This document shows, one piece after another, positions 5,841-33,000 of a stretch of DNA of 48,934 nucleotides. Numbering within the stretch: the first letter of the stretch is position 1; the number at the start of each line of letters is the position of its first letter. The position numbers and the translations under genes are program-made. The DNA comes from a virus. The notes beneath the pieces were generated by a model. It did not search any database. It saw nothing but the letters and a program-made list of their open reading frames with translations, and had not been told where the DNA came from. The stretch lies in the IMG/VR virus record IMGVR_UViG_3300042691_026652, positions 1 to 48,934 of that record; one strand, given 5' to 3'.

Positions 5841-6110
5841 TGTGATGCTTCTTTTGGACAAGCATCACACATCCATCACAACGTAACATCCTCAGCCTCA
5901 GCATTGTGATGCTTGTGATGCTTCTTTTTCGTTTTTTAAACACTTTCCGCAAACTCCCCGCACAACCCCCTCTCTCCCTGCCATCTACCACTATTCCCAC
6001 TACTTTTTACCAAAAGAAGCATCACAAGCATCACAAGCATCACAAGCCTCATCCTCAACGACTTGGGTGTGATGGTAGTCCCCAAAAAGAAGCATCACAC
6101 ATCCATCACA
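5841..6110. repeat. iteron-like array of AGCATCACA and its complement
   Basis: The 9-mer AGCATCACA occurs at 5861-5869, 6018-6026, 6027-6035, 6036-6044 and 6091-6099. Its complement TGTGATGCT occurs at 5841-5849, 5905-5913 and 5914-5922. Near-copies TCCATCACA are at 5872-5880 and 6102-6110, and TGTGATGGT at 6068-6076. Segments 5904-5928 and 6012-6036 form a perfect 25-base inverted repeat around an 83-base spacer. A 21-base block is repeated identically at 5860-5880 and 6090-6110. Direct 9-bp phasing plus inversion fits protein-binding iterons of a replication origin or an operator hub. Which one cannot be decided from sequence. Confidence 0.75.
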
Positions 6111-6275
6111 CTCAAAATCCAGCACTCAGACTCCCCGCATCTCTGTCTCCCCCTGCTACTTATGCGCAAACATCACTCCCGCACTCACTTCCACGCTTTT
6201 TCCAAACCACAAAAATCACCCATTCTCAGCTAAGTAGCACTGCCCCTGCAATTTGCGTTATGACAAAGATTTCCA

Positions 6276-6304
6276 TTGCAACCCATTCTAACCCATGCGA
6301 GGAT
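6276..6304 (+). promoter_or_regulatory. early promoter, copy A
   Basis: A -35-like TTGCAA (6276-6281), a 17-base spacer beginning CCCA, and a weak -10 GAGGAT (6299-6304). It aligns base for base with the better promoter copy B at 8526-8554. The 21 bases 6304-6324 are identical to 8554-8574, covering the expected start of transcription. The first early gene starts at 6349. The call rests mainly on conservation with copies B and C. Confidence 0.6.
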
Positions 6305-6348
6305 GCAGGCTCAGTGTTAGTTAAATCAAAAATCAAAAATCAAAAATC

Positions 6349-6927
6349 ATGAGCACCACATCCATCAAACTCACCACTGCCTCGGCTGCCCGTAGCCAGT
6401 ACCTCGAAACACTCAAGAGCGGCACTCCCGCCGACCAACACTATGCCGAGAGGGCGCTGACTTGGGCATTCAGAGACGTTCCGTTCCTCAAACGCGACCA
6501 TCAGTTTGCGTTGACGTTCAAAGACCAAGACCACCGTCAGGGAGTGCACACAATCGGCATTGGGCGATTTTCGTCACTGGAAACGGCCGTTTATGTTGCC
6601 GGACTCGATCTCAGCTACAACCGTCCGTTGGCGCAGGAGGAGATCCGCCGAATCGAACGGGATCCTCGGGTTGGTTTTGCTGGCGCACTCGTCGACGACG
6701 ACAACACGGTGTACACCCTGCACAATTTCGGTCGGCATGGCCGCACCCTAAACGTGTTTGACCCGTTCTGCTCCGTTCTTGATGACCGTCCGCTCAAACT
6801 GATCGCACTCAATCACACCAACCTCCAACTCATCTACGTTGGCACATTCCCCCGCAAATTCCGCGACTCGTTAAACCAGATCACAAACAAGCACTTAGGT
6901 GCTGAAGTAGAACTGTTTATCGCATAG
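6349..6927 (+). CDS. 192-residue early protein, unknown
   Basis: First gene of the rightward early block, following promoter copy A and a G-poor leader with three AAAAATC repeats. The product MSTTSIKLTTASAARSQYLE... is soluble, with no membrane segment or Cys cluster. Its middle has alternating strands (TVYTLHNFGRHGRTLNVFDP, LKLIALNHTNLQLIYVGTF). No motif allows a named family. Its position suggests it is among the earliest proteins made after infection, so host takeover or anti-defence is possible but unproven. A GGGGCCCC hairpin follows its stop. Confidence 0.75.
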   Translation: MSTTSIKLTTASAARSQYLETLKSGTPADQHYAERALTWAFRDVPFLKRDHQFALTFKDQDHRQGVHTIGIGRFSSLETAVYVAGLDLSYNRPLAQEEIRRIERDPRVGFAGALVDDDNTVYTLHNFGRHGRTLNVFDPFCSVLDDRPLKLIALNHTNLQLIYVGTFPRKFRDSLNQITNKHLGAEVELFIA

Positions 6928-6935
6928 CACCTCAC

Positions 6936-6953
6936 GGGGCCCCTCGGGGCCCC
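6936..6953 (+). other. GC hairpin after first early gene
   Basis: GGGGCCCC, TC, GGGGCCCC forms a hairpin with up to 8 G-C pairs, 8 bases after the stop at 6927. There is no U-tract, so it is not a standard terminator. It could protect or separate cistrons in the early transcript. It is unlike the three-copy element found after 8443, 9943 and 11493. Confidence 0.6.
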
Positions 6954-6980
6954 ACACCACAAACCAAACAAACCAACACC

Positions 6981-8083: not shown

Positions 8084-8443
8084 ATGAACGCACCGTCCAT
8101 ACAACGACTACAGGCCGACCTCGGCCTGACCACTCAGCAGGCAAAGCTAGTCCGCGCCTTGATTCGCAAAGAGGTAAAAACGTGGGACGAAACCCTGTTT
8201 CCAGCCACAAGCGCTTGGCTCAAAACGTGTTATCACCGACCCTCCTACCCTGACAGACTGCTGTCAGCGCTCAACGAGGTGATCGGCGGTGACGGGGTCG
8301 AAGCCATTGAGGGGCGGGAGTTTAACCAACCCTCGGCGCTATACGTCAACACGGGAGACGCATACTCGCCGACACTGCTCTACTGCTACCGCTCAAACAC
8401 GGTCAGGCTCACAACGTTGGGGGACTACGCTGAAAGACTCTAG
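8084..8443 (+). CDS. 119-residue early protein, unknown
   Basis: MNAPSIQRLQADLGLTTQQA begins a helical N-terminal half (KLVRALIRKEVKTWDE) that could be a small helix-turn-helix-like bundle, followed by a beta-rich C-terminal half (ALYVNTGDAYSPTLLYCYRS). No conserved catalytic residues are recognised. It is preceded by an all-A/C leader. One base separates its stop from copy 1 of the structured RNA element (8445-8504), which links it to the genes ending at 9943 and 11493. Confidence 0.7.
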   Translation: MNAPSIQRLQADLGLTTQQAKLVRALIRKEVKTWDETLFPATSAWLKTCYHRPSYPDRLLSALNEVIGGDGVEAIEGREFNQPSALYVNTGDAYSPTLLYCYRSNTVRLTTLGDYAERL

Positions 8444-8444
8444 C

Positions 8445-8504
8445 GGGTTCCCGTCTGCGCCTCTCCACAAAGGGAGGGGTGCAGCAGGGAACCCACGGGG
8501 TTCC
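8445..8504 (+). ncRNA. structured RNA element, copy 1
   Basis: The outer stem GGGTTCCC (8445-8452) pairs perfectly with GGGAACCC (8487-8494). The internal loop is GT/CA (8453-8454, 8485-8486). The inner stem is CTGCGCCTCTCC (8455-8466) with 8473-8484, including G-T wobbles. The 3' arm of the outer stem can instead pair downstream: GGAACCC (8488-8494), loop ACG, GGGTTCC (8498-8504). The two structures exclude each other. Two more copies with compensatory changes are at 9944 and 11495. Confidence 0.7.
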
Positions 8505-8525
8505 GAGTTATGACACATAAACCCA

Positions 8526-8554
8526 TTGCACCCCACGACGGTACATGGTATTGT
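8526..8554 (+). promoter_or_regulatory. early promoter, copy B
   Basis: TTGCAC (8526-8531), a 17-base spacer, and TATTGT (8549-8554) fit a sigma-70-type promoter. The flanks match copy A upstream (TTATGACA and CCATTGCA) and downstream (21 identical bases from 8554). It drives the gene at 8598, following RNA element copy 1, and so restarts transcription within the early block. Confidence 0.7.
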
Positions 8555-8597
8555 GCAGGCTCAGTGTTAGTTAATTCAAAATCCAAAATCCAACGCC

Positions 8598-9170
8598 ATG
8601 AAAACCACACCCATCAAACCCGTAGACGCAACCGCACTCGACCTGCAACGGTTCGCACTGGCAGTGCTCGAAACGATCTGCGACTCACAAAACGTAGGTC
8701 ACAACCATGCTCAACACCCGTTTGTCGAGCGGGAGAGGTCGTTTGACGAGATTGTGCGACTCGCAAACAACCTGCTCAAACTCAACCCCGAAAACGGACT
8801 CCTGTCCCGCACTGCATCAGTCGAGGACGTTGCTCTGGTGCATGATTGCGCCGAGGCGCGTGAGTCGGCCGAGTCCGAGACCCGTCGACGTGAGGTCAAC
8901 GAGTGGGGCAACCCTCGCAACCCGTCGCGCATCGTGTTTCGCAACGGATTCTACTGGGTGTTGGGACTGGCGTTCGACAACGACGAATACAACTCGGGCG
9001 CATGGCTAGCCACTCATGACCGAGGCTACGCATCCCTCCAAGATGCGCTCGACCATGCCGCATGCCGTCGCGTTGCACGTGACCTTGCCGCCGTATCAGG
9101 TGCCCTTAATGAGGTGCTGTCAGGGGCAAACGCAGTCCCCCAAGCGTCCCGCAAACACCGCGCAGTCTAA
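8598..9170 (+). CDS. 190-residue early protein, unknown
   Basis: First gene after promoter copy B; its leader has few G (tcaaaatccaaaatccaacgcc). The N-terminal half is helical (LDLQRFALAVLETICDSQNV). A middle stretch rich in Arg/Glu follows (EARESAESETRRREVNEWGN). The C-terminal half has NGFYWVLGLAFDNDEYNSGA and ASLQDALDHAACRRVARDLA. The pairing of a beta hairpin with an 'ALQDAL-A' helix is common in small phage proteins of unknown function. No family is named. The last 20 residues look disordered. Confidence 0.75.
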   Translation: MKTTPIKPVDATALDLQRFALAVLETICDSQNVGHNHAQHPFVERERSFDEIVRLANNLLKLNPENGLLSRTASVEDVALVHDCAEARESAESETRRREVNEWGNPRNPSRIVFRNGFYWVLGLAFDNDEYNSGAWLATHDRGYASLQDALDHAACRRVARDLAAVSGALNEVLSGANAVPQASRKHRAV

Positions 9171-9204
9171 CCCCCACAAACCAAACCACAAACTAACCAA
9201 ACCC
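9171..9204 (+). promoter_or_regulatory. G-free A/C-rich translation leader
   Basis: The 34 bases between the stop at 9170 and the ATG at 9205 contain no G and a single T. This composition, not a Shine-Dalgarno sequence, marks the true start of the following gene within a longer open frame. Confidence 0.55.
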
Positions 9205-9501
9205 ATGAACCTAAAAGAGATCATCACTAAAGTGCTGGAGAACCCTCAAAGCGAACTCATCCTCACCGAGGATGGGTTCGATTGGGCCCCGAAAAGCAAC
9301 AATTGGGCAACCGAATACCTGTCCCTCCTAGACCGTGAAGGGATGTTGCAGGCGACCCCCACGGGTGAACCTGACGCAGAAGGACTGGCAGAGTGGGTAC
9401 GCGACAATGTCGGGGACTGGTTGCGTGCCGAAGTCAACGCAACCGAGGATTACGACCGAGACCGCATAGCGTTCCTAGCACGTCTTTTCGCCGCAATCTA
9501 A
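9205..9501 (+). CDS. 98-residue acidic early protein
   Basis: The open frame reaches back to 9016, but that part is a shadow of the previous gene. The ATG at 9205 (MNLKEIITKVLENPQSELIL) follows the G-free leader. The product is acidic and helical: DGFDWAPKSNNWATEYLSLL, DREGMLQATPTGEPDAEGLA and VRDNVGDWLRAEVNATEDYD. It contains several Trp residues and no Cys. No domain is recognised. The size and acidity are typical of phage accessory proteins. Confidence 0.7.
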   Translation: MNLKEIITKVLENPQSELILTEDGFDWAPKSNNWATEYLSLLDREGMLQATPTGEPDAEGLAEWVRDNVGDWLRAEVNATEDYDRDRIAFLARLFAAI

Positions 9502-9521
9502 ACCCCAAACCATCCAACCCC
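9502..9521 (+). promoter_or_regulatory. G-free A/C-rich translation leader
   Basis: Twenty bases between the stop at 9501 and the ATG at 9522, with no G and a single T. It belongs to the same class as the leader at 8052-8083 and fixes the start of the small membrane protein. Confidence 0.5.
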
Positions 9522-9698
9522 ATGAAACCCACACCTCAAACAATCGCGGCCGCCAGCATCCTCCTCGCCTGCGTCGATGCTCTGGCACTGGCAACCCTCG
9601 ACCTCGAATTATGGGAGGCGCTCTCGATCGGAGCGCTCTTGATCACCAGTTACGCACTCGGGTTGCGAGTGGGGCTGAGCAACGATACCGAACTATGA
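9522..9698 (+). CDS. 58-residue two-helix membrane protein
   Basis: MKPTPQTIAAASILLACVDA opens a first hydrophobic helix (residues about 7-26). ALSIGALLITSYALGLRVGL forms a second (residues about 34-53). A short acidic loop (DLELWE) lies between them. The topology resembles small holins, but the gene is in the early block, far from the endolysin, so a membrane-acting superinfection-exclusion or host-modifying role is equally possible. The start is chosen by the A/C leader; the longer frame to 9393 overlaps the previous gene. Confidence 0.65.
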   Translation: MKPTPQTIAAASILLACVDALALATLDLELWEALSIGALLITSYALGLRVGLSNDTEL

Positions 9699-9710
9699 CA
9701 CTCATGCCCA

Positions 9711-9739
9711 TTGCGCCCCACGGCCGCTCACGGTACATT
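9711..9739 (+). promoter_or_regulatory. early promoter, copy C
   Basis: TTGCGC (9711-9716), a 17-base spacer starting CCCACG as in copy B, and TACATT (9734-9739). Upstream it shares CTATGACA and CCCATTGC with copies A and B, but it lacks their shared downstream 21 bases. The expected start of transcription (about 9746) is only about 3 bases before the ATG at 9749, so the mRNA would be nearly leaderless. Confidence 0.6.
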
Positions 9740-9748
9740 GCTCACCCC

Positions 9749-9943
9749 ATGACATACAGCATCACAATCAATGGTCGGCCGACGGACATAGTGTTCCGGT
9801 CTAAACGTCGAGCGGTGCAGGCCGCACTTGCCCTCGCCAAAAGCGAGGGTGGGGTCACCGAGTTCGCCGAATACAGTGCTGGTCTCGGTGCGTGGGTTTG
9901 CTCGCCCGAGAACCAGTACAACGTCCGTCGCCGCACCACCTGA
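9749..9943 (+). CDS. 64-residue early protein, unknown
   Basis: MTYSITINGRPTDIVFRSKR begins a compact alpha/beta protein with a basic helix (RRAVQAALALAKSEG) and an Arg-rich end (NVRRRTT). It starts about 3 bases after the expected transcription start of promoter C. The frame is open upstream to 9611, but that part overlaps the membrane-protein gene and has no good start. RNA element copy 2 begins on the base after its stop. Function unknown; nucleic-acid binding is conceivable from the basic character. Confidence 0.65.
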   Translation: MTYSITINGRPTDIVFRSKRRAVQAALALAKSEGGVTEFAEYSAGLGAWVCSPENQYNVRRRTT

Positions 9944-9998
9944 GTTCCCGTCTGCGCCTCTCCACGGGGAGGGGCGCAGCAGGGAGGGCAGATCCTCC
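9944..9998 (+). ncRNA. structured RNA element, copy 2
   Basis: The outer stem TTCCC (9945-9949) pairs with GGGAG (9982-9986). The same GT/CA internal loop is present (9950-9951, 9980-9981). The inner stem CTGCGCCTCTCC (9952-9963) pairs with 9968-9979; the G-T wobble of copy 1 becomes a G-C pair here (9956-9975). The alternative pairing is GGAGG (9983-9987) with CCTCC (9994-9998). It starts at the stop codon of the preceding gene. Confidence 0.7.
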
Positions 9999-10024
9999 AT
10001 CAAACACAAACAAACCAAAAACAT

Positions 10025-10336
10025 ATGAGCAACAACGCAAACGAAATAAAACACGCAGTCGCAGTGTTCTGCAAATACCTCGGGCCGACAAATACACGGG
10101 GGGCACGGGTCAAACTGACACTCCCCGCATACGGAGTTTCCAAGGTGATCCCCTACTCCTACGAGCACTCGGGGTACACGCAAACCGCGATTGCATTCCT
10201 GCGGGGGTGGGCGATCCAGCCCGAGTATGACGTCGAGGGGGAGACGGGGTCAGTGCTGATCATCAACCCGCTCGACTACGCACTGCTGAGGACGGCATTC
10301 GCAATCCCCGAGGTGCTGCGCACTCCCGTTAAATAA
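10025..10336 (+). CDS. 103-residue early protein, unknown
   Basis: Starts after RNA element copy 2 and an A/C-rich leader (acaaacaaaccaaaaacat). The product MSNNANEIKHAVAVFCKYLG... is alpha/beta: GARVKLTLPAYGVSKVIPYS, YTQTAIAFLRGWAIQPEYDV and SVLIINPLDYALLRTAFAIP. No catalytic motif is evident and no family is recognised. A 22-base leader without G leads to the next gene, so it lies in the same transcript. Confidence 0.7.
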   Translation: MSNNANEIKHAVAVFCKYLGPTNTRGARVKLTLPAYGVSKVIPYSYEHSGYTQTAIAFLRGWAIQPEYDVEGETGSVLIINPLDYALLRTAFAIPEVLRTPVK

Positions 10337-10358
10337 CCACACACCACACCCACACACT
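10337..10358 (+). promoter_or_regulatory. G-free A/C translation leader
   Basis: The 22 bases between the stop at 10336 and the ATG at 10359 are all A or C except the final T. It belongs to the same class as 8052-8083 and has no Shine-Dalgarno sequence. Confidence 0.55.
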
Positions 10359-10568
10359 ATGGATAACCTTGAATACAGACGCGACGTCATAGCATACCAA
10401 GTCTTTTTGCGGGGTTCTTTCTCCGACTGGACTTCGGATCACCCTACCGAGGCGCAGGCCATTGCGGCCGCGCATAAGTTGCGCGAAACCCTCAAACCCC
10501 GAGGCGACGACTACCGACTCATTGAGATTCGACGAGTCGTTGAAGAGTACTCCGTTTTACCCGAATAA
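10359..10568 (+). CDS. 69-residue early protein, unknown
   Basis: A short alpha/beta product: VIAYQVFLRGSFSDWTSDHP then TEAQAIAAAHKLRETLKP and DYRLIEIRRVVEEYSVLP. The strand-helix-strand order (a strand ending in W/S-D, a helix rich in Ala, then a strand reading 'YRLIEIRRVVEEY') is common in small phage proteins of unknown role. It starts after an A/C leader and ends 5 bp before the next ATG. Confidence 0.7.
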   Translation: MDNLEYRRDVIAYQVFLRGSFSDWTSDHPTEAQAIAAAHKLRETLKPRGDDYRLIEIRRVVEEYSVLPE

Positions 10569-10573
10569 ACACC

Positions 10574-10819
10574 ATGAATACTACCCAAGCAACGTGGGAT
10601 TACGAATTTACCGACACTTTCGGCGACCAACCCAACTTCAGTTGGGTTGCCCGAGGATCCGTTGTGGGCACCCGAGAGGAGGCATTGCGCGAGGTATTCT
10701 CGCGCATAAAGATGCACCGTTGGGAGGCAGCAATCGTGGATCGGTCTGACGTCACCGAGTACTGGTTCCCCCAATTCAACTGCGTCTTATTCTTTTACGA
10801 ACAGGAGGTGTTGCAATGA
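10574..10819 (+). CDS. 81-residue early protein, unknown
   Basis: MNTTQATWDYEFTDTFGDQP... has a strand-helix-strand layout (FSWVARGSVVGTREEALREV, then AAIVDRSDVTEYWFP), similar in outline to the preceding 69-residue protein. Its last codons contain a perfect Shine-Dalgarno sequence, AGGAGGTG (10803-10810), for the next gene, and its stop overlaps that start (ATGA). No family is recognised. Confidence 0.7.
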   Translation: MNTTQATWDYEFTDTFGDQPNFSWVARGSVVGTREEALREVFSRIKMHRWEAAIVDRSDVTEYWFPQFNCVLFFYEQEVLQ

Positions 10820-11493
10820 CTCGTCAACGCACCATTCGACTGACCGTCGTAGAGGACGTCGATGCAGGCTACGTCTGCTGGCATGCGCCGAAACAGAAAC
10901 TCGACGAGTACCATCTGTTAATGGCGGATGCCCTCCGACTCAAGTTCGACGTCAACGGCCCACAACCACTACGACTAAAGGCAACGGATACGCTCGACGA
11001 ACTGAACCGGAGGATCGAAACCGTCGCCGCACAAAACCGGACGAAGGTCACTCGCACCTCAAAGACCGAGTGGTTCTTGACGTCAAGAATCGTCACCAGA
11101 AAGCGTCACCGATTCCCAACGCCTGCAGGTGACGGGGTCAAGTGGGGCCCGTCGAACTTCTACCCCCAAGTCTGGCGCGACCTCGTCACGGCGATTAGGT
11201 CGGGGCTGGACTTTTCCACGGGTTGGATGGGCGCGAAAAAGGAGGCACTGTCAGTGCGCATTAGCCGAGAGAACGGCCGGTTCCTGTTTGAAGTGTCGAC
11301 CTGCCTAGGGGCCGACGAGGATGGCGAGGGGGGTGGTCTTGGCAAAGCGGCGTTTTCCCTACACCGCAAACTGCCAATCGACGAGATTGAGCGTCGACTG
11401 GATCGGGCAGGGTTTAAAGCGTGGGCGGCCGCAAAGGAGGACTTGCGGCGCAACCTGCCAGAGGACTCGACCATCGACCCTCGGGACGCATGA
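10816..11493 (+). CDS. 225-residue early protein, unknown
   Basis: The start is fixed by AGGAGGTG (10803-10810), ideally spaced before the ATG, the only perfect Shine-Dalgarno sequence I found in the early block. The N-terminal part is beta-rich (RTIRLTVVEDVDAGYVCWHA). Basic stretches follow (NRTKVTRTSKTEWFLTSRIV, TRKRHRF). The C-terminal third has VRISRENGRFLFEVSTCLGA, the acidic-glycine segment DEDGEGGG, and a helix (LPIDEIERRLDRAGFKAWAA). No known domain is recognised. RNA element copy 3 begins 2 bases after its stop. Confidence 0.75.
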   Translation: MTRQRTIRLTVVEDVDAGYVCWHAPKQKLDEYHLLMADALRLKFDVNGPQPLRLKATDTLDELNRRIETVAAQNRTKVTRTSKTEWFLTSRIVTRKRHRFPTPAGDGVKWGPSNFYPQVWRDLVTAIRSGLDFSTGWMGAKKEALSVRISRENGRFLFEVSTCLGADEDGEGGGLGKAAFSLHRKLPIDEIERRLDRAGFKAWAAAKEDLRRNLPEDSTIDPRDA

Positions 11494-11494
11494 G

Positions 11495-11555
11495 TGCTCC
11501 TGTCTGCGCCTCCGGAGCATCCGCCAGAGGCGCAGCAGGGAGCAGTTACGCTCCT
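11495..11555 (+). ncRNA. structured RNA element, copy 3
   Basis: The outer stem TGCTCCT (11495-11501) pairs with GGGAGCA (11538-11544); its bases differ from copy 1 but pairing is kept. The GT/CA internal loop is retained (11502-11503, 11536-11537). The inner stem CTGCGCCTC (11504-11512) pairs with GAGGCGCAG (11527-11535). The apical part folds as CGGA-GCA-TCCG. The alternative pairing is GGAGC (11539-11543) with GCTCC (11550-11554). It starts right after the stop of the 225-residue gene. Confidence 0.7.
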
Positions 11556-11592
11556 GACAAACACACCCAAACAGCAAAACCATACACTCAAT

Positions 11593-22328: not shown

Positions 22329-24044
22329 TTAATAGGAACCTCCATAGATGACTTGGTTTGCTTGAAATGTTGCCACAGGCGCATACTGACTTGTGGAAGA
22401 GTTGTAGACGAGTGCCTGCCCGTTTGTTGGTGCAGTCGTCGATACGGTAACGCCGCGAATCTTCGCGACCGTTGGGCCGGGGTAGCTTCCAGAAAGGTCT
22501 CCACTTGCCGTGCCAGTTGGAGCAGGCATGTAGGTGGTGGAAACTTTCCCCGTGCCGTCTAACGGACACACTCCATTGGCCGTGCCAACTGACGACGACA
22601 CAACGACTGCTGTGGGTTCGTATTGGGTTGCCGTTTGGTTCCACACTAACGCTTGCCCCGTGGTCGTAGGCGCGGTCGCTGTAACCGCTCGGCCTTGAAT
22701 CTTTGCGACCGTTGGGCCGGGATAGCTTCCAGAAAGGTCTCCACTTGCCGTGCCTGACGGGGTTCCGCCCGAAGTGATTGCCACCCACACCGAACCGGTC
22801 CAGCGGTGCGTGGTGTTGTCTGTGGTTCTGACGTAAATCTTTCCGGTCTCTCCAGTCCCCGGGAGCGTCGATACTTCAACGACATCATCGACGTAGGATG
22901 GCAGGTAGGTTGAATCAATTTGGGAACTGGCGTTCAGCGGACACACCCCGTTGGCTGCCCCCCTCTGGCTTACTGCAAGCCGAGACGTGTCGGTCGGGTG
23001 GACGTGGTCTTGCCGTGCATAAAGCGCCGATGTTCCGACTGCAGCGGTCCCGTTCATCAATGGCGCTGAGATGCCGGCGCTTACAGCAACGGTCTGAACC
23101 GAGTTGTCTGAAAACTTGATTCCAGAAGCGTCAACGGTCAGGCCGCCAGAAGAGATTATCAACGCGCCCGTCATCGTATCCCCTGCCTTAGCCAATCTGG
23201 AGGTATCGGTTGGATGCTGGTGATCCTGTCTCGACCATTTGTCAGACGTTCCAGCAGACGCTGAAGTAGCGTTTATCACCGGCAAACTAGTCCCTGCCTG
23301 TGGCATCCCAATACCTGTCCATGCTGCAGCTTGAGTTGCCCCTCCCGTACCTCCCTTTGAGATGGCTAGTGTTCCAGTCAAATCAGCAGCAAGCAGCGCA
23401 TTTAGGGATGTGTTCGTGCCATCTGATCGCAGGTAAAGCCCCGAACTTTGCGTGCCGGCCAAAGCATTGATGGCAGCCTGACGATTGGACTGTCCGGTCC
23501 CGCCCTTTTCAATCGTAATCACCCCAAAGATGTCGTTAGACGTAATCGGGCCTGAGTCGATGTAATACTCGGTTACAGCGGGTGTTCCGATTTGCCTTGT
23601 AGCCCAACGGAAAAACCCCGTTTCGCTTGGATAGGGGAACGTAAGGTCGAGGTTTACATCAGCATCTGGATAGGATGGCAGCAGGTCGATTTTCAGCTTC
23701 ATCTCCTGCGACATCATCGTCAGCTTATCAAGCGCATCTTCAACGCTTTCTGCGTAAAATGCTCCTTGATTTCTGAAGACAGTCTCTTGGGTGTATGCCG
23801 CTACTTTACGGGAGATAACAACCGCATCCCCGGCTACCATGGAGTACCCCGACGCAATCGTGATTGTACCTCCCTCATAGTAATTAACCCCGGTCACGCT
23901 GTAGTTGGTTCCCTTCGTGAGCGGAGTCCCATTGACTCTTACGATAAGGTCGTCTTCCGAGACGATACGAAAGCCAAAATCGAAAGTGCGGGTAGTGCCG
24001 TTGTAAACGTAACTCGCCTTGGAGATAATGCTGGGGACACTCAT
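22329..24044 (-). CDS. tail fibre with T7 gp17-like N-terminus
   Basis: A 571-residue fibre starting at ATG 24044 (MSVPSIISKASYVYNGTTRT), one base after the stop of the giant gene; the longer frame to 24131 overlaps that gene. Residues 1-130 match the T7 tail-fibre N-terminal pattern (FDFGFRIVSEDDLIVRVNG, TNYSVTGVNYYEGGTITI, AGDAVVISRKVAAYTQ), which attaches the fibre to the tail. Then come repeat blocks such as KGGTGQ and two copies of ASGDLSGSYPGPTVAKI, and the motif VDASGIKFSDNSVQTV shared with the 908-residue fibre. It recognises the host surface by homology. Confidence 0.85.
   Translation of the reverse strand: MSVPSIISKASYVYNGTTRTFDFGFRIVSEDDLIVRVNGTPLTKGTNYSVTGVNYYEGGTITIASGYSMVAGDAVVISRKVAAYTQETVFRNQGAFYAESVEDALDKLTMMSQEMKLKIDLLPSYPDADVNLDLTFPYPSETGFFRWATRQIGTPAVTEYYIDSGPITSNDIFGVITIEKGGTGQSNRQAAINALAGTQSSGLYLRSDGTNTSLNALLAADLTGTLAISKGGTGGATQAAAWTGIGMPQAGTSLPVINATSASAGTSDKWSRQDHQHPTDTSRLAKAGDTMTGALIISSGGLTVDASGIKFSDNSVQTVAVSAGISAPLMNGTAAVGTSALYARQDHVHPTDTSRLAVSQRGAANGVCPLNASSQIDSTYLPSYVDDVVEVSTLPGTGETGKIYVRTTDNTTHRWTGSVWVAITSGGTPSGTASGDLSGSYPGPTVAKIQGRAVTATAPTTTGQALVWNQTATQYEPTAVVVSSSVGTANGVCPLDGTGKVSTTYMPAPTGTASGDLSGSYPGPTVAKIRGVTVSTTAPTNGQALVYNSSTSQYAPVATFQANQVIYGGSY
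22464..22754. repeat. direct repeat in fibre gene
   Basis: Segments 22464-22514 and 22704-22754 are almost identical (the visible difference is ggta versus gata). They encode the two copies of the fibre peptide GDLSGSYPGPTVAKI, 80 residues apart. Such repeats allow recombination within and between fibre genes. Confidence 0.8.
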
Positions 24045-24045
24045 A

Positions 24046-27000
24046 TTATTCGCGTTCTTCTTTTGTCGGACCTCGGAGCAGTACCAATGGGTTTCTGGTG
24101 TTACCTTCCCACAGGGCTTTTGCGCCTTCAACAGTTCGTTGCAACTGAATCGCTGGATAGTGGAATAAAACCCCGGCGACCCTGTTTAACTCAACCCACG
24201 CAGTTCTGCTCATCTCTTCATTTTTGACCGAGGACGTTATGGCGTTGGCTAAGCGATACACGTCGCCAATCGGCCTGATGCCGGCCGGTCCCTCGTACCC
24301 TCTCTGCTCGAGAATCCCAATAAACTCGCGGGTGAACAAACTCTGATTGAGCAGAAACGCAAACTGATCTTTCGCCAGTTTCTTGAGAAGGTCTTCATCT
24401 TCCCCATACCTGCCAAGCAAGGAGTTCACCAGCAGGGTCAGCGCAACTGGCAGGGAGTTCAGGATTAACAGGTCTACCATTGCCCTGCCAATCTGCCCCT
24501 TCCCCTTGACTTCAATCCCTTTGATTGTCTCGACGTTCAGGTTGTATGTCGTTATCGCGTAGGAGTAAAACAACGTAAACAGACGCTGGAATGCACTGCC
24601 TTGTTGAGCCAAGGCCAAGTCCTTAATCATCCCCGACCCTTGCGTATCAATGATTGCTTGGTCTGCAAGCGTCACTGCGTTGTCATCCGACATGCCTTCG
24701 TTGATTGCATTGTCGTATGCAGCAAGCCACGTTGGCATATCTGCGAGTTGCTGCCCTTTGATAATCAGGTAGTAGAAGGTCGATTGAATCTCCTTCCGAG
24801 CGTCGGGAGTGATTGTGTTGTATATCTCGTTGAGTTCTCGGTCTTGAGTTTTCGCCCTCAACCGCATGAGCGTCGATTTTGAATGCACCCACGCAACGGT
24901 GTTCTCTGCCTTGCTCGCTGACGTCAACCAACGCATGGCGGCCTTGAGTAGCGGAATAGCCCCAACTCGAGTGACACTTTGAGTTAGCCCGAAAACCTGC
25001 TGCATGGATGTCATCAGGTTGTAGCCCATAATCGATATCTGCGTCCCGTTGCGCAGGAACTTGTACAGCATCGACCCGTGCTCCGTCCCGTGCGTGTCAC
25101 CAATCGCAATCTGCTTCAGCAAACTGTTGATTGTGTACAGCGTGTCCTGCCCGTAATAGGTCTCAATCGCGGCCGCGACATTCCGGTCACGCAGGATCCT
25201 GCCAGTCTGAATGAGCATCTCATGGTGCGTGATATCGTGAATGACAGCGTTCAAGTGCCTGTGAATCACATCAAACCCTAGCCGCACTTCTCGCTCAACC
25301 CGGTCCAGTCGCTCAATCAAGAACCCCCTCTTGGTTGTGGCAGCGGATACCGATCCAGCCTTCATTGACTCAGCAGCGTCGTCGTCAGTTGCGAACTGAC
25401 TGGAAAGCCCACGGTACTCTATGGGGTAATACCCACCTCGATACACGCCGAATGCAGTTGTGACCATTGCCGGCTCAACAGGTTCGGGGGCAATCCCGTA
25501 TACGCGCCTCTGCTTCGCACTGATATCGGCCCAATACGAGTGAATCAAATCCCAAACCGACTGGACGAAATCCCAATCACGCTTTGAGAGGGTCGCCAAA
25601 ATGGCCTCTACATCTGCCTGCACCCATGCGTTGTTGCCGTCAACAAGGCGCTGACGAGAGGACTCGTTGCCCCAATTTAGCGCCATGCACAGGACGTCCT
25701 CCCTCGAGAGGGAGAATGACTTGCCGTTGACCACAATGTCCCTGCGAGTTGCCATCTCTGACATCTCCTGTTTGGTGAACACGGCAAACACCTTCTTGAG
25801 TCGAAGCAGGGCATCCTCCCTTAGCGCAGCCTCATTGTTGCCGGCTTGGTTGATTGGATCCATGAACGCCCAATACATCGGGCCTGCCTCGTTGAACCCG
25901 TCCAACTCGCGAATCAGGGATGCCAGTTTCCGCATGGACCCAAACTGACCTGCAATCCGAGCAGCGAGTTTCTCTGATTTATTCAGCGCTCCAATTGGGC
26001 GGGGTTTCGGCTTGCGATTCCCGCTGATTGTTGCGGTCAGGATCTGAATCATCTCCTTAAACTCCCGCTTCTCCTCACCAACCTTGATTTCGAGAGCTTC
26101 CTTTGCCAGATGGTAAATCTGCTTTGCAAGGTCGAAGACGTCTTTCAACTCGCCCGGGGTCATGTCCCTAAAGTCTTTCCGATAAGCCTCGTCGAGAATG
26201 TTTTGTGACACGTCAACCGTGTACCCCTGCGATTTCTGCGATTCAATCCACTCACGCAATTTGACCCTCCGGTCCACTTCAACTAGCGGAATTGGGCGGA
26301 AGTTGAATCGCTCCAAAAGCGCATTCATCTGGTCTTGGAACGACCCTCCAGCAAGTCCAAGTTTGGCCTGCGCTGACTCTTTGTTGCGCGATTCCAACCA
26401 GTCCGCCTGCTTGTCGGCATTCTTGCGCACCTCCACTGCCATGCGGTGCAGCGCTGTGTTTGCCAGTTCCGCCTCCTTTGCTGACAGTGCCTGAATGTAT
26501 TCCCCCCTTGCCGCAAAGCGAGTGGCTGCCTGAGCGTTTCTTTTCGCGGCCGCCGCATAGGTTCCGGGACGGATATCGCGCAATCTCATCCTGCCAAGCA
26601 TTCTGGCAGCCTGCTGCTCAGCCAACTGCTTGAGCAACTTGTAGCTACCAAGCAGAGAGATAGCCGCATTGGCTTGGTTCTCAGTGCCGGCAATGATTCT
26701 GGCAGCAATCACCCCAAGCGGACGTGGCGCAGAGTTTAGAATCCGCCGCATTGCCTTTTTGTCCGCCCGGATAAGTCGCTGTAACTCAGCCATCTCAATG
26801 GCAATCACGTCTTCCCTGAACTCGTTCCTGACTGCCTCGGAGGCGGCCTCTGCAAGCGCCTCGGGGTTGTCGAGCATCGAGCCAAACATGGCATCCACAT
26901 CTGCTTTGACTCTCTCTTTAACAACGTCAGCAAGAGGACGGATATTCAGAAGCGTGTTCAGGAGTTCTTCTCCAGATGCGAACCCAAATATTTCAGCGGC

Positions 27001-30000
27001 CTGATCTGGAGTCACCCCGTTTTCGGTGCTGTAAACCCCAAGTTCTCTCAGGCGCTTCATCTTGTCCTTGTCGGCGCTTCTCCAGTAAATGCCCTGAAGA
27101 CTAGCCTTGTCTAACTTGAATGCCTGCAGCGGGGGTTGCAGTTCCTTGCCGTCAGGAGTGCGTCCAGTGCGCAGAACGTAGAGTGCAATGTAATCCTGCC
27201 TGCCTTCCAGTTCAGCCCTGACTTCTTTCTCCCTCTGCTCGCGATACGCCGCACGCTGCTTCCTGAGCAGCGCCCTTTCGGAACGCATGATTTCTTCCCC
27301 TAGCAACTCTCTAGCTTTCTCTGAAGCCTTGCCAATGAACTTGCTGTACTCATTCCAGACCGCTTCAGGCATCTTGTCTGGTTTCGAGGCAAACATCGGC
27401 TCAACCTGCTCCCTCTCTTCTGCTGCCTTAATCTCCGTCTCGGTCGCAACGACCTTGTCGAAAAACCCAACGATATCATCGGAGAGACTGACGTCGCTAT
27501 CGTCGAACTTGCCAATGCTCGCAATCGTCTTGTAGATGTCCCCAATCCACTTCTTGAACCGCTGAAACATGGACTGCAACTCTTGGATTGGAGCCTTCCC
27601 TTCACGCAGGTACGCCTCCCAGTTTTCCGCGAGCAACTCATGGCCGGCAAACCCAATGTACATGTGAAATGCCGTTTTCTTTCTCCAATGGGCAAGGGCA
27701 TTAACGATCTCATCGTCGCTCATCGATCTGATGAGCTTTGCGGCATAAAGTTCAGATGGGATACTGCCACTATCTGCCAACTGCGCTGCCATCTTCCGAA
27801 TAAGCGCAGGCCGGCGCTGCCACCATTTTACAACCGTCTCCATCTCCGCCTTCACTTCATCGGTGGCGCTATCAGAGGCAGCAAGGTCACCGAGCGCCTC
27901 GAGATAGTAATGCATCATTTCGTGCATGATCGTCGCCACGTCAGCACTCTTGAATAACTCGATGGTAAACTTGCGAGATGGATTGCCTCTTTCCTTGGGG
28001 TAGAACGTCAACTGCCCTTTGACGAAATTCCCCTGATCTTCAATGCGGTTTGCCACAGCAACCGCAACGTCGTCCCAAATCAAAAACTCCTGAGAGGTTT
28101 TCAGGTTCCGCTTAACAGTAGCGACCCTGCCCGGGATCCCCATTGCCTTGAGAGTCATTGACGCTTGCCTCGCCGCTGCCTCAACCGAAATGCCTGCCAT
28201 GTTGAGATACATGACATCATCTTTCCCCGCCAATTTATCAATCAGCGTCCTGCCAGTAATCGTTCCAGAGATAAACTGCCTGATGATAATCTCCGTCGCT
28301 TGGTCAATCCCTCTGGAACTTGCGTTGAGTTTTGCGTTCAAAAACGCATTCTTCACATGCTCTGACTGGTCATCAAACTTGCCGTCAATGTTGAGCAGTT
28401 GGTCTGTCTCGGGGATGTTAACGCTGTACTCAATGTACCGACGATCCTTAGCGCTTTTGTCCGCTGCCTTCAGTTGCCCGTACAACTCTGCCATCTGTTT
28501 GCTGTCAGAGAACAACAACCCCCACCCAAGTCCTCCCGTGTCAGAGGAGTGGTGTGCGGTAAACTTGTCGAAAAGTTCGGTCGAGTAATGCCAAACCAAC
28601 TGATACAACCTCACAACACTATCGTCCGCCACAGGGTTTTTGGCTAAAACCATGCCACCAACCTGCAAGACTTCAGCGGCATCAGTCACCGGAGCGCCAG
28701 TATCCTTACGGTAAAACATCGACGACCGAATAGGGTTAAACCCTACCTCAACCCACTCGGGGTCATTCATGGCCTGCTGCGCCATTTGATACGTCACATC
28801 GACCGACTGAGTGACGTTCTCTCCTCGCATCGTGGCGATTGTGCTTTTTGGAGCGCCAGCAGCAATCTTGAGTGAAGCCTTTTGGCTCGAGCGAAACTGG
28901 ACTCCGCGCAGATGCACTGCTGCAGCGTACCCAAGAATCGGGCCTGCCTTCCTGAAGTCTTCACGTAGCGGTCCTGTATCGTCGTGCAGCGACACGATCC
29001 AAATGCCACGCTCATCGTAGGCCGGGATATCCAGCCGAGACTCAACAATCCTCCGACCAATGCTCTCAGGAGCGATTATCAAGTCCCGCTTCAGAGTCGG
29101 CTCCCCTGCTCTCAACGGACGCTCACCTAACCCATAAGCCATCTCCTCATTGGTTGCTGGCACGGGAACTTCAGTGAACTCTCCCATAGGGGCGCGGGTG
29201 CGCACTATTTCCTGATACTCAGCGGGAGTGAGTCTGCCTTCCTGCATGTCTATTGCAGCCTGCTGCAGTATCGGATCTCGAGTGCGTTTGGTTCGCTGCT
29301 GCAGGGCAACCGTTTCAATAGAGTCGTCAGATTCTATTTCTGCAGAAGCATCCGCTTTTTGCGAGAATCGAGCGATGTCTCCCGGGATGCTGGTGTGCCC
29401 GACCATTTGCTGGTGAGGGCGCTGATTGTTCATCAGTTTCTCGGCGTACAGGTGTGCAGCAGAATATGCGTAGTCCTGTCCCTCTGCAGCGTCCGCCACA
29501 CCAAACATCCAATACAGGTCTTTCTCCCCGTACCACAGCACTGCCTGCAAGTCTGCGTTCTCTAGGTCAATCCCATCAGCTTTCAGGCGGGTTCTGAGGA
29601 TGTCGATGATTTCACGGACGGCGTTTCTGTACTCCCCTGACGTTGGAGCTTCCTGCCCCTTTGTAAGGTCTTCATCAATTGTCTTTGCCGCTCTGTTGAA
29701 CTCGGTCTTTAGGACGTATCCATCCGCCCCAAAACGACGATGCACCTCACCAGAGTAGGCAAGCGTCCTTGCCAGCATTGGCGCAATCTGAGTTTGCCGG
29801 TCTCCGATGTTTGCGCTCGGCGTTTTCAGGAAGTTCTCAAGTTCCTTCACTACCGCCTTGTCTTCGTTCGTCCACTCGATTTCGGCCAGAGCGTATTCAG
29901 CATAGTACTCAGCACGCTTCAGCTTTTTCTTCTCCTCGTCAGTCAGTTTTTTCTTTACCTCTGATGCGTCTTTTGACGCCTTTCTGGCATCGGCTAACGC

Positions 30001-33000
30001 TTGCGACAATGCCTTGCGCTGCTCGGCGGTCGCGGCCTTTGCCGCTTTTTCTTTTTGCCGCATTGCCCCAAGCAAGCGGTCTAACGAACCCTTCAGGCCG
30101 GTGTACGTGCCGTTGTCTTTCTGGTCACCAACGGTAATGCCAAATGGCCGCCCAAGGATGCGCTGAATCGTCCGAGTAAACCAAAGGTCCATCGTGACGC
30201 TATCAAACAGGAACTGAAGATTCCCAAAGAACGACCCAATTTTCGGGCCAAGCATCATTGCGCCTCTAACTATCGTCTGCCCCAACTCCCCTGCCACTAG
30301 GTTCTTTTTCTTCCCGGCCGCTGCAACCTCTGGCAGAACTTCGGAAAGCAAAGCATCCACTTCCTTTGTTTGCATCCTCTCTCCAAGCAAATCCATGGCT
30401 GCAGCCAATCCTCTCGAGTTAATGAGGTTCTGCAGTTTGACCAAGTTGTTCTGGATTTGACCTCGGCTTTTCCCGCCAAATGTAACCAAGTCAGGGAGTC
30501 TCCCGTTCTGCTGGTAGAACCGGTAGACAACGTCAGCGAAAACAAAGTTCTGCTCAACCCTTTGCCCTTGGGACGTAACAGCAATCAGAGCTTTGTATAG
30601 GCGCTCCAAGTCGCGGTTGTTTCTCAACTCAGGATGAATGTTGTGAACAATCGCCATGGATGCCTGAACGGCCGCCAGATACCAGTCCACGCCAGATGCC
30701 TGCTTTGCAGCAAGCCTTGCCAGCGTGAAGTAGTACAGAGCGTCTGCAACCTTTTCCTTCTCCTGCCCTGTCAGCGTTGACGGATCTGACTTGCCAATAG
30801 CGTCTCCGATTTGGTTTTCAGCCCAAATCAAGAACTGCATGACCCCTTCCATCTTTTGCTGCTCGCCGGCCTTGCCAATGGAGATGTCTGCCATTGAAAG
30901 CCGAATAGCTTCTGGCAAAAAGTCCATGCCCTGAATCTTGCTTAGGGCTACCTGAGCCAATAACTCGACCCGCTTCTTGCGTTCGTCCGCACGGACCCTG
31001 CCCTCGGCTTGCTCTTGGTTTTCAACTGCCTGATAAGCGTCCAGTCGAATCAGCTTTGCCTGAGCGTCAGCAATCTCTTCAGGTTTTGCATTTGGGTTCT
31101 GCTGCATGAACCCGGCCATGAGCGTCGAGATGTCCTGCGCTGACGAAATCGTCAGCACGGGAGTCCCTGCCAGTGGACTTCTGGAGATGTTTACTGTTCC
31201 GCCGGTTTGCTGGAGGGCGGATTGCCACGCTGTGTCGGTTGAGATTCCTCCGCTGGATTGAGCGATGTCTGCTCTCGCCTTCCAGAGAGTTGTGAGGCTA
31301 CGGAGGCGAGGCTCGATCCTATCACGAACTGCGACGAATTCAGACCAAAAACCGGATTGTCGAAGTTTTTCCTCGAAGTTTGAAGTGCCTGCTGCAGTTC
31401 GGGTATTAGTCTCATAGATTCCAAGATCCCAGTTCAGATTGAAAAAACAAATCTGTGAAGGCAAAATCAGGTTGAGCGAGTGAAGCCGATTAATCCAGTC
31501 CAAATACAAGGATTGGCTCACTCCAAAATTGACGAGTTTGTATCCGGTCGGGGTTGGGAAATACCCAATGTTTGATGCCTGATTTGCTCCGAGAATGCGC
31601 TTTGCTTCAGTGAACAGAATCTGGATTTCCATCTCGTTCAAAGGTCTCCCGTAAGAGACGGAAATCCCGGGTGCAGCCTGCTTCTCGGCATCAGTCGCGT
31701 TATCGCTAAGCGGAATGGCAACGTGTCCAGAAACGGCCTCTTGCTGTTGGATAATCCCGTGAGCCAACGCATACGCACGCAGTCGGGCGCTTGAGCGTGT
31801 AAGGAAGATGATGGTCCCTTTGGGCTTAAAGGAACTCTCCAGTTCAAGCAGGGACTGCTCAAGAGATGCAATCTGAGCCTTGATTGCTTTTTTAGCCTCC
31901 TTGTCTTCTGGCCGCTTCTGCTCAAGTTCAGCGCTTGCCTTTGCAATCGCATTGCGCACCTCGCGCATCTTGGGAGAGTCGATTTCGTTTCGCTTCACCA
32001 ACGTCTTGATGCCCTTTTTGATTGCCGGGTTCAGGCTTTCCTCTAGCTGAGCGAGGCTTGCTTCAAGAGTCGCCAGAGCTTCTTTTGCCTCTTTCTTCCT
32101 GTCCTTTGGCTGAGCCTTTACATCTGCTTTTGCTTTTTCGACGGCCTCTCTTGCTGCTCGGATTTGAGGGTATAGCCCATCCTCGACAATGGATCTGATG
32201 GTCTCGTTTGGCAAAACCTCCCGAGTCCCTTCAATCTGCGCATTCCAATTGTCGTCTTCAAACTCAGCAGATGCCCTAGGCTTTAAAACCAATTGTCCGC
32301 TCGGATTGATTTCCAGCGATCCAGACTGATTGACATAGGCTGAAGGGGCGACGGTGCTCTCTGCCTGAGTTAGGCCGAATGCGTCTGCCAAAAGGTCGCT
32401 TCCCGTTCCGGGTTCCTGATAGGCAGTCCGAACCTCACTATCGAACTGCATCTTAACCCAAAGCGGAGCATTAATCATCGGGGCAAGCACACTTCCCGTG
32501 TTGTTGCCGACCATCATTTCCTGAGAGTATGTAAACCCTTGATAGGTAGCCTTGACCTCCATTGAGGTGTATTTCCTCACTGCCTGCACGCCAAACCGCT
32601 CTGCCAGTGTTTGTATCTGGCCGTTTTCATTAAACGCAATTGGATTTAACGGGCCGGCAATTCCAGCAACGGCAGCAACGCCGTCAACAATCCGTTGCGC
32701 TGCTGGCATGTCATTTGCGTCAATTGCCCTACGGTAATCCACCTCGTACCGAGAAACACGCGATTGCGTCAGTTGGCTCCTTCCAACAGGGACGACGACT
32801 CCAGATCCTGTGAACCTCAAAGCGAAACGCTCGGTGAACTCTGGCACGCTTATCCCCGCTCTGTCCGCCAGTGTGGCAACCATCCTAGCCGACATTGCCG
32901 CATTTAGCCTGAGCGTGGACTCCTTGATTTGCTTGGTCTTTGTAAGCGTACTGTTGATTGGCGCAAACGCTGCCTGAAGTTCTTCAAATATCTTATCCGC

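Follow-up and report, generated by a model that had tools for sequence, protein, structure and literature searches.

The 48,934-base IMG/VR virus record IMGVR_UViG_3300042691_026652 (the whole stretch analysed, hereafter the window) carries three copies of an RNA element that adjoins stop codons and belongs to a previously uncatalogued RNA family, represented by 15 distinct copies in eight phage lineages, the window included. The RNA structure of the element is firmly supported. Its kind is already known, namely an intercistronic processing hairpin or alternative-hairpin element; we know of no other element that combines an embedded stop codon with a conserved third strand. With a probability of about 0.5, the family would represent intercistronic mRNA-processing elements in polycistronic phage transcripts, a reading drawn from the comparisons given below.

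Structure, relatives and position of the element

The family frame consists of an outer stem P1 (UUCCC/GGGAG), a GU/CA internal loop and an inner stem P2 of 11-14 base pairs (bp) and free sequence. In the full layout, a P1 extension of about 3 bp and a mismatch precede P1 (5-8 bp), which is followed by the 2x2 loop of GU/CA type and by P2 (about 11-14 bp). Together the duplex parts make up roughly two helical turns, and the length of P2 is held near one turn. A downstream strand, usually GCUCC, pairs with the P1 3' arm to give an alternative hairpin, P3. The most conserved parts are the boxes flanking the internal loop (CCC/GGG and CUG/CAG), while the loop itself occurs as AU/CA (L003e), GU/GA (L241) and GUU/CG (L233b), and there are almost no conserved unpaired bases.

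A sequence-only reading of the window had placed the three copies at 8445-8504, 9944-9998 and 11495-11555, and all the features that it described were located there. The core GTCTGCGCCTC begins at 8453, 9950 and 11502, and GYGCAGCAGGGA at 8479, 9974 and 11530; the copies start 0-1 nucleotides (nt) past the stop codons ending at 8443 (TAG), 9943 (TGA) and 11493 (TGA). Folding was compared with dinucleotide shuffles, yielding z-scores of -6.1, -4.3 and -5.3 for copies 1, 2 and 3, respectively, and none of 200 shuffles was equally stable. No additional copies were found within the window.

Taken alone, the three window copies would be thin evidence for covariation, but relatives provide it. The counts come from a 14-row alignment (A6) that was fitted to a model and has few gaps in the P1 and P2 columns outside the inner loop. 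In these stems 93.6% of cells are paired, and double compensatory changes occur at 15 of the 22 pairs; hence the covariation proposed from three copies is real once relatives are included. Doubly changed cells number 48, against 13.3 in shuffles and 6-14 when the partners are slid. Strong covariation is also seen in the 3-bp extension that joins the stop-codon region to the P3 loop (14 doubly changed cells vs 4.3). In core P1 and P2 the ratio of G.U to A.C cells is 24 to 1, which argues for selection on the sense RNA rather than on a DNA palindrome. The structured RNA of the sequence-only reading is supported and is not due to chance.

P3 (usually GGAGC/GCTCC) pairs in every copy, with 5 bp and a loop mostly of 6 nt, and its strand has altered in step with the 5' arm in copies 1 and 2 and in L242. 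The alternative downstream hairpin predicted from the sequence was found in all three window copies, and the two hairpins are indeed mutually exclusive, since P1 and P3 compete for the P1 3' arm. The minimum-energy fold is P1 with P2. When everything up to 12 nt past the stop was blocked, all 15 copies kept P2 and paired the P1 3' arm with the downstream strand as a second hairpin (in a shifted register in both copies of L233), a state about 8-14 kcal/mol less stable than P1 with P2. A generic scan for three-strand arrangements after stops gave 27 matches in 11,997 and 19 in controls. This family accounts for about half of the 27, and the others do not exceed the control rate, so by that measure no second three-strand family stands out.

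The nearest relative of the window phage is L003 (56% Erf identity), which has five copies, each two bases past a TAA; these are near-identical to one another, while copies of different genomes have diverged. Among 80 loci with Erf relatives, copies were present only in L003. Further members, namely L086/L240, L232, L233 (two copies), L238, L241 and L242, came from a pattern that fixed only the outer arm and the loop flanks, and from the neighbours of a gene common to L003 and L086; L243 repeats the L242 copy on another contig. The inner stems of these relatives are mostly unrelated in sequence and retain pairing. A model built from the window copies only (R1) scores the other copies at 31-56 bits, except the second L233 copy (20.7 bits). 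Homologues therefore exist across the lineages and keep pairing by compensation.

Other searches define the limits of the family. A strict exact-core pattern had no matches in IMG/VR; a looser one recovered L086 and L089/L003 there amid chance matches, and in genome contigs none of the matches listed had the flanking frame. None of 388 genomes sampled from the phylum of an Opitutae assembly had a copy (six matches, all lacking the inner stem), and named phages gave short chance matches only, with no copy. A model search of seven genomes was empty and uninformative. In Rfam 15 no family reached its gathering threshold for the element; the lowest E-value of a permissive scan belonged to whalefall-1, at 20 bits vs a gathering score of 37. 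No description of the element turned up in the open-licence papers searched, and the comparison with known structures covered Rfam but not the published RAGATH-type candidates outside it.

In total, 14 of the 15 copies start 0-7 nt past an in-frame stop. About 5% of random plus-strand positions in the probably early region of the window lie 0-7 nt past such a stop, so chance is excluded as the source of this link. A start codon follows 18-49 nt beyond P3 in 14 of 15 copies, and the leader after the element lacks a Shine-Dalgarno (SD) motif; the intercistronic location given by the sequence-only reading is supported. The element is upstream in L241, and downstream in L242, of genes that read as homologous (comparison by eye), and in L086 it precedes a gene whose L003 homologue has none. 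Judging from such gene orders, it is not tied to any gene or gene family. A different small hairpin, GTCTAGTCCCCCTAGAC, recurs after several genes on the minus strand of L238, in several intergenic places; the stop codon TAG can lie within its 5' arm.

Processing of phage transcripts and competing explanations

The sequence-only reading left a choice among a switch, an attenuator and a processing site. The last is favoured, because type II hammerhead ribozymes share the slot in three element-bearing lineages; a ligand switch and a classical attenuator are unlikely. Three further structures that abut stops in the L086 record (G001) proved to be type II hammerheads whose core is intact, and one each is present in the L241 record (G006) and in the L242/L243 records (G007/G008). 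All of them begin at an open reading frame's stop codon or close to it. Their scores of 20-31 bits are under the Rfam gathering score of 37, but those that were scanned matched no family better than hammerhead II, and none lacks the GAAA, NUH or CUGACGA element. In the five kin hammerheads a downstream GTCAG (four) or TCGTTAG (one) can pair with the catalytic CTGACGA strand, and the resulting hairpin is close to P3 in geometry. No type II hammerhead was found in the window. Two further type II hammerhead-like ribozymes lie soon after stops in a different phage, L252 (9.9-11.0 kb, +; G409:21825-21901 and 22872-22955), without a competing strand.

Clustered prophage hammerheads were interpreted by Perreault et al. 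as processing long transcripts into gene-sized mRNAs (PMC3088659). The element resembles the type II hammerheads of phage and prophage operons (RF02276; PMC3088659) in its stop-abutting intercistronic position in kin phages, in a downstream strand that can pair with the 3' strand, and in its independence of gene identity. A like job is suggested for it because the slot and the competing-strand design are the same. It differs from them in having no hammerhead core, and identity with this class was rejected, as GAAA, NUH and CUGANGA are not present in type II order.

The proposed processing could run as follows. A host double-strand ribonuclease, most likely RNase III, would cut the long duplex near the internal loop. 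This would leave the stable P2 hairpin as the 3' end of the upstream message and put the 5' end of the downstream message at GGGAGC or close to it; released from the 5' arm, GGGAGC could fold into P3 as a 5' protective hairpin before the unstructured leader. A ribosome at the stop codon would cover the P1 5' arm and thereby open P1 in favour of P3, so that cleavage might be delayed until the ribosome has finished termination.

In T7-type phages, the RNase III processing sites of early mRNAs (R sites) are long irregular hairpins between early cistrons. The element is likewise found as several irregular internal-loop hairpins of about two helical turns between cistrons of a podovirus-like phage, in what is probably an early polycistronic mRNA. 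Unlike R sites, it has a conserved third strand (P3), a stop-codon region in the stem and conserved sequence near the loop, and its cleavage by RNase III is a prediction.

Several observations weigh against processing. RNase III requires less conserved primary sequence than UUCCCGUCUG / CAGCAGGGAG, which could serve as a site for protein binding. The element-bearing records encode no RNase III, so a host enzyme must be assumed. Because the L238 copy starts 62 nt past its stop, the tie to stop codons has an exception. Copy 1 is followed not directly by a leader but by a promoter-like site, of which a like form occurs at 6.3 kb and in L003. Finally, the covariation of P3 is modest.

A more specific and tentative version of the processing model is that cleavage is gated by termination in both the element and the type II hammerheads, each having a strand of the cleavable fold at the stop and a competing strand downstream. 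While the ribosome terminates, the RNA would be kept uncut in the P3 state; once the ribosome has left, cutting could proceed.

The same geometry could serve, though this seems unlikely, as a ribosome-sensing translational switch without cleavage, in which P1, including the stop codon, folds when the upstream gene is untranslated, and a terminating ribosome melts P1 so that P3 forms and initiation or re-initiation at the downstream leader changes. The covarying pairing of the stop-codon region with the P3 loop, the abutment to a stop in 14 of 15 copies, the turn of all copies to a P3-type hairpin under a ribosome-footprint block and the leaders without SD motifs agree with such a switch. However, the P1 state is more stable than the blocked one by about 8-14 kcal/mol, the leader and start codon are hidden in neither state, which obscures any output on translation, there is no tie to particular gene pairs, and the L238 copy lies away from its stop.

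Less probable is a site for an RNA-binding protein (a phage or host repressor, antiterminator or stability factor) that recognises the GU/CA loop with its CCC/GGG and CUG/CAG flanks. These boxes are the most conserved part while P2 is free, and copies are near-identical within a genome (L003) and diverged between genomes, as such a site could explain; but the loop varies in L003e, L241 and L233b, and no candidate protein was found, a whole-record comparison of shared genes not having been run. An mRNA 3'-end stabiliser or barrier to 3' exonucleases or post-termination ribosomes, of the kind formed by REP-type hairpins, is improbable: it accounts for a very stable stem directly past the stop in 14 of 15 copies, but leaves the conserved third strand, P3 and the internal loop unexplained, and the copies lie inside operons. 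A new self-cleaving ribozyme, which would share slot and three-strand logic with the type II hammerheads of the same records, is very improbable, given hardly any invariant unpaired nucleotides and a loop that tolerates AU/CA, GU/GA and GUU/CG.

Other classes were rejected. The element is not an intrinsic terminator, as the sequence-only reading had already held: no copy is followed by a U-tract, and ordinary U-tract terminators are used elsewhere in the kin phages. A riboswitch does not fit the absence of gene linkage, the near absence of conserved unpaired bases and the presence of only a variable 2x2 loop. In trp-type attenuators, the position of the ribosome sets the choice between mutually exclusive hairpins, one of which is a terminator. 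The element also has mutually exclusive hairpins whose choice could depend on ribosome position, but it lies at the stops of ordinary genes and has no terminator hairpin or leader peptide; P3 lacks a U-tract, and with no terminator partner a classical attenuator is unlikely. Programmed stop-codon readthrough is contradicted by frames that differ between copies and by an L003 copy whose readthrough frame is closed by a stop within the element, and a REP-like mobile repeat does not explain lineage-specific inner stems with kept pairing. The ESAS repeats of cluster K mycobacteriophages are likewise inverted repeats present in several intergenic copies in the non-structural part of phage genomes, but they adjoin a start-associated motif, and departures in their arms do not generally support RNA pairing (PMC3203893), whereas pairing of the element is strongly supported and anchored at the stop codon.

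Feature coordinates and the surrounding early region

Table 1. Parts of the three window copies and type II hammerhead-like structures of kin phages; positions refer to the window unless a record is named.
Feature	Position	Strand	Basis or remark
Upstream-gene stop TAG, abuts copy 1	8441..8443	+	gene 8084-8443
Copy 1 P1 5' arm GGGTTCCC (strand 1)	8445..8452	+	fold, covariation
Copy 1 internal loop GT	8453..8454	+	partner CA 8485-8486
Copy 1 P2 inner hairpin, 12 bp	8455..8484	+	fold, covariation
Copy 1 P1 3' arm GGGAACCC (strand 2)	8487..8494	+	doubles as P3 5' arm
Copy 1 strand 3 GGGTTCC	8498..8504	+	P3 3' arm, 7 bp
Stop TGA abutting copy 2	9941..9943	+	
Copy 2 P1 5' arm TTCCC	9945..9949	+	
Copy 2 internal loop GT	9950..9951	+	partner CA 9980-9981
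Copy 2 P2 inner hairpin, 12 bp	9952..9979	+	fold, covariation
Copy 2 P1 3' arm / P3 5' arm GGGAGG	9982..9987	+	
Copy 2 strand 3 CCTCC	9994..9998	+	P3 3' arm
SD-less A/C-rich leader after copy 2	9999..10024	+	to ATG 10025
Stop TGA abutting copy 3	11491..11493	+	
Copy 3 P1 5' arm TGCTCCT	11495..11501	+	
Copy 3 internal loop GT	11502..11503	+	partner CA 11536-11537
Copy 3 P2 inner hairpin	11504..11535	+	fold, covariation
Copy 3 P1 3' arm / P3 5' arm GGGAGCA	11538..11544	+	
Copy 3 strand 3 GCTCC	11550..11554	+	P3 3' arm
SD-less A/C-rich leader after copy 3	11555..11592	+	to ATG 11593
Type II hammerhead-like (three)	L086, GAAA cores near 1820, 8001, 7616	-	
Type II hammerhead-like	L242 4061-4118	+	
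Type II hammerhead-like	G006:172-241	-	

The window encodes a podovirus-type portal close to the portals of phiV10-like phages, an Erf-like annealing protein, a RecE-like exonuclease, helicases and, on the minus strand at 24046-35388, a 3,780-residue protein that starts with an LPD22 polyvalent-protein domain and also has a stretch resembling L5 gp82. The plus strand at 6.3-12.6 kb holds small genes that, from their position and content, are probably early. Most of those inspected have no SD motif and have A/C-rich leaders, and the proteins flanking the elements are mostly without a Pfam family.

Early promoter-like sequence (CCATTG...CCCATG...) is common to window positions 6260-6330 and 8510-8580 and to the minus strand of L003 near 12768 and 11231. 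It ends in GGCTCAGTGTTAGTT, where transcripts probably start, and a leader without an SD motif comes next. Ahead of the first early gene, the window has iteron-like 9-base repeats AGCATCACA (6018-6100); in the same place L003 has the 9-base repeats AGCATTACA/TGTAATGCT (minus strand, 13.3-13.55 kb). Such repeats could be a replication origin or regulator sites. A GGGGCC-type hairpin at 6937-6956 (+), about 9 nt past the stop at 6927, does not belong to the element family (8.3 bits).

Implications

The family is an uncatalogued, strongly covarying RNA of uncultured phages, with a clear stop-codon rule and a conserved three-strand refolding. It links the processing of polycistronic phage mRNA to the hammerhead ribozymes of the same slot, and offers a testable answer to the question of why certain phages place self-cleaving or cleavable RNAs between their genes. 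If cleavage is gated by the ribosome, translation termination would be newly connected with RNA processing, and a single regulatory logic would have been realised twice, on a duplex and on a ribozyme.

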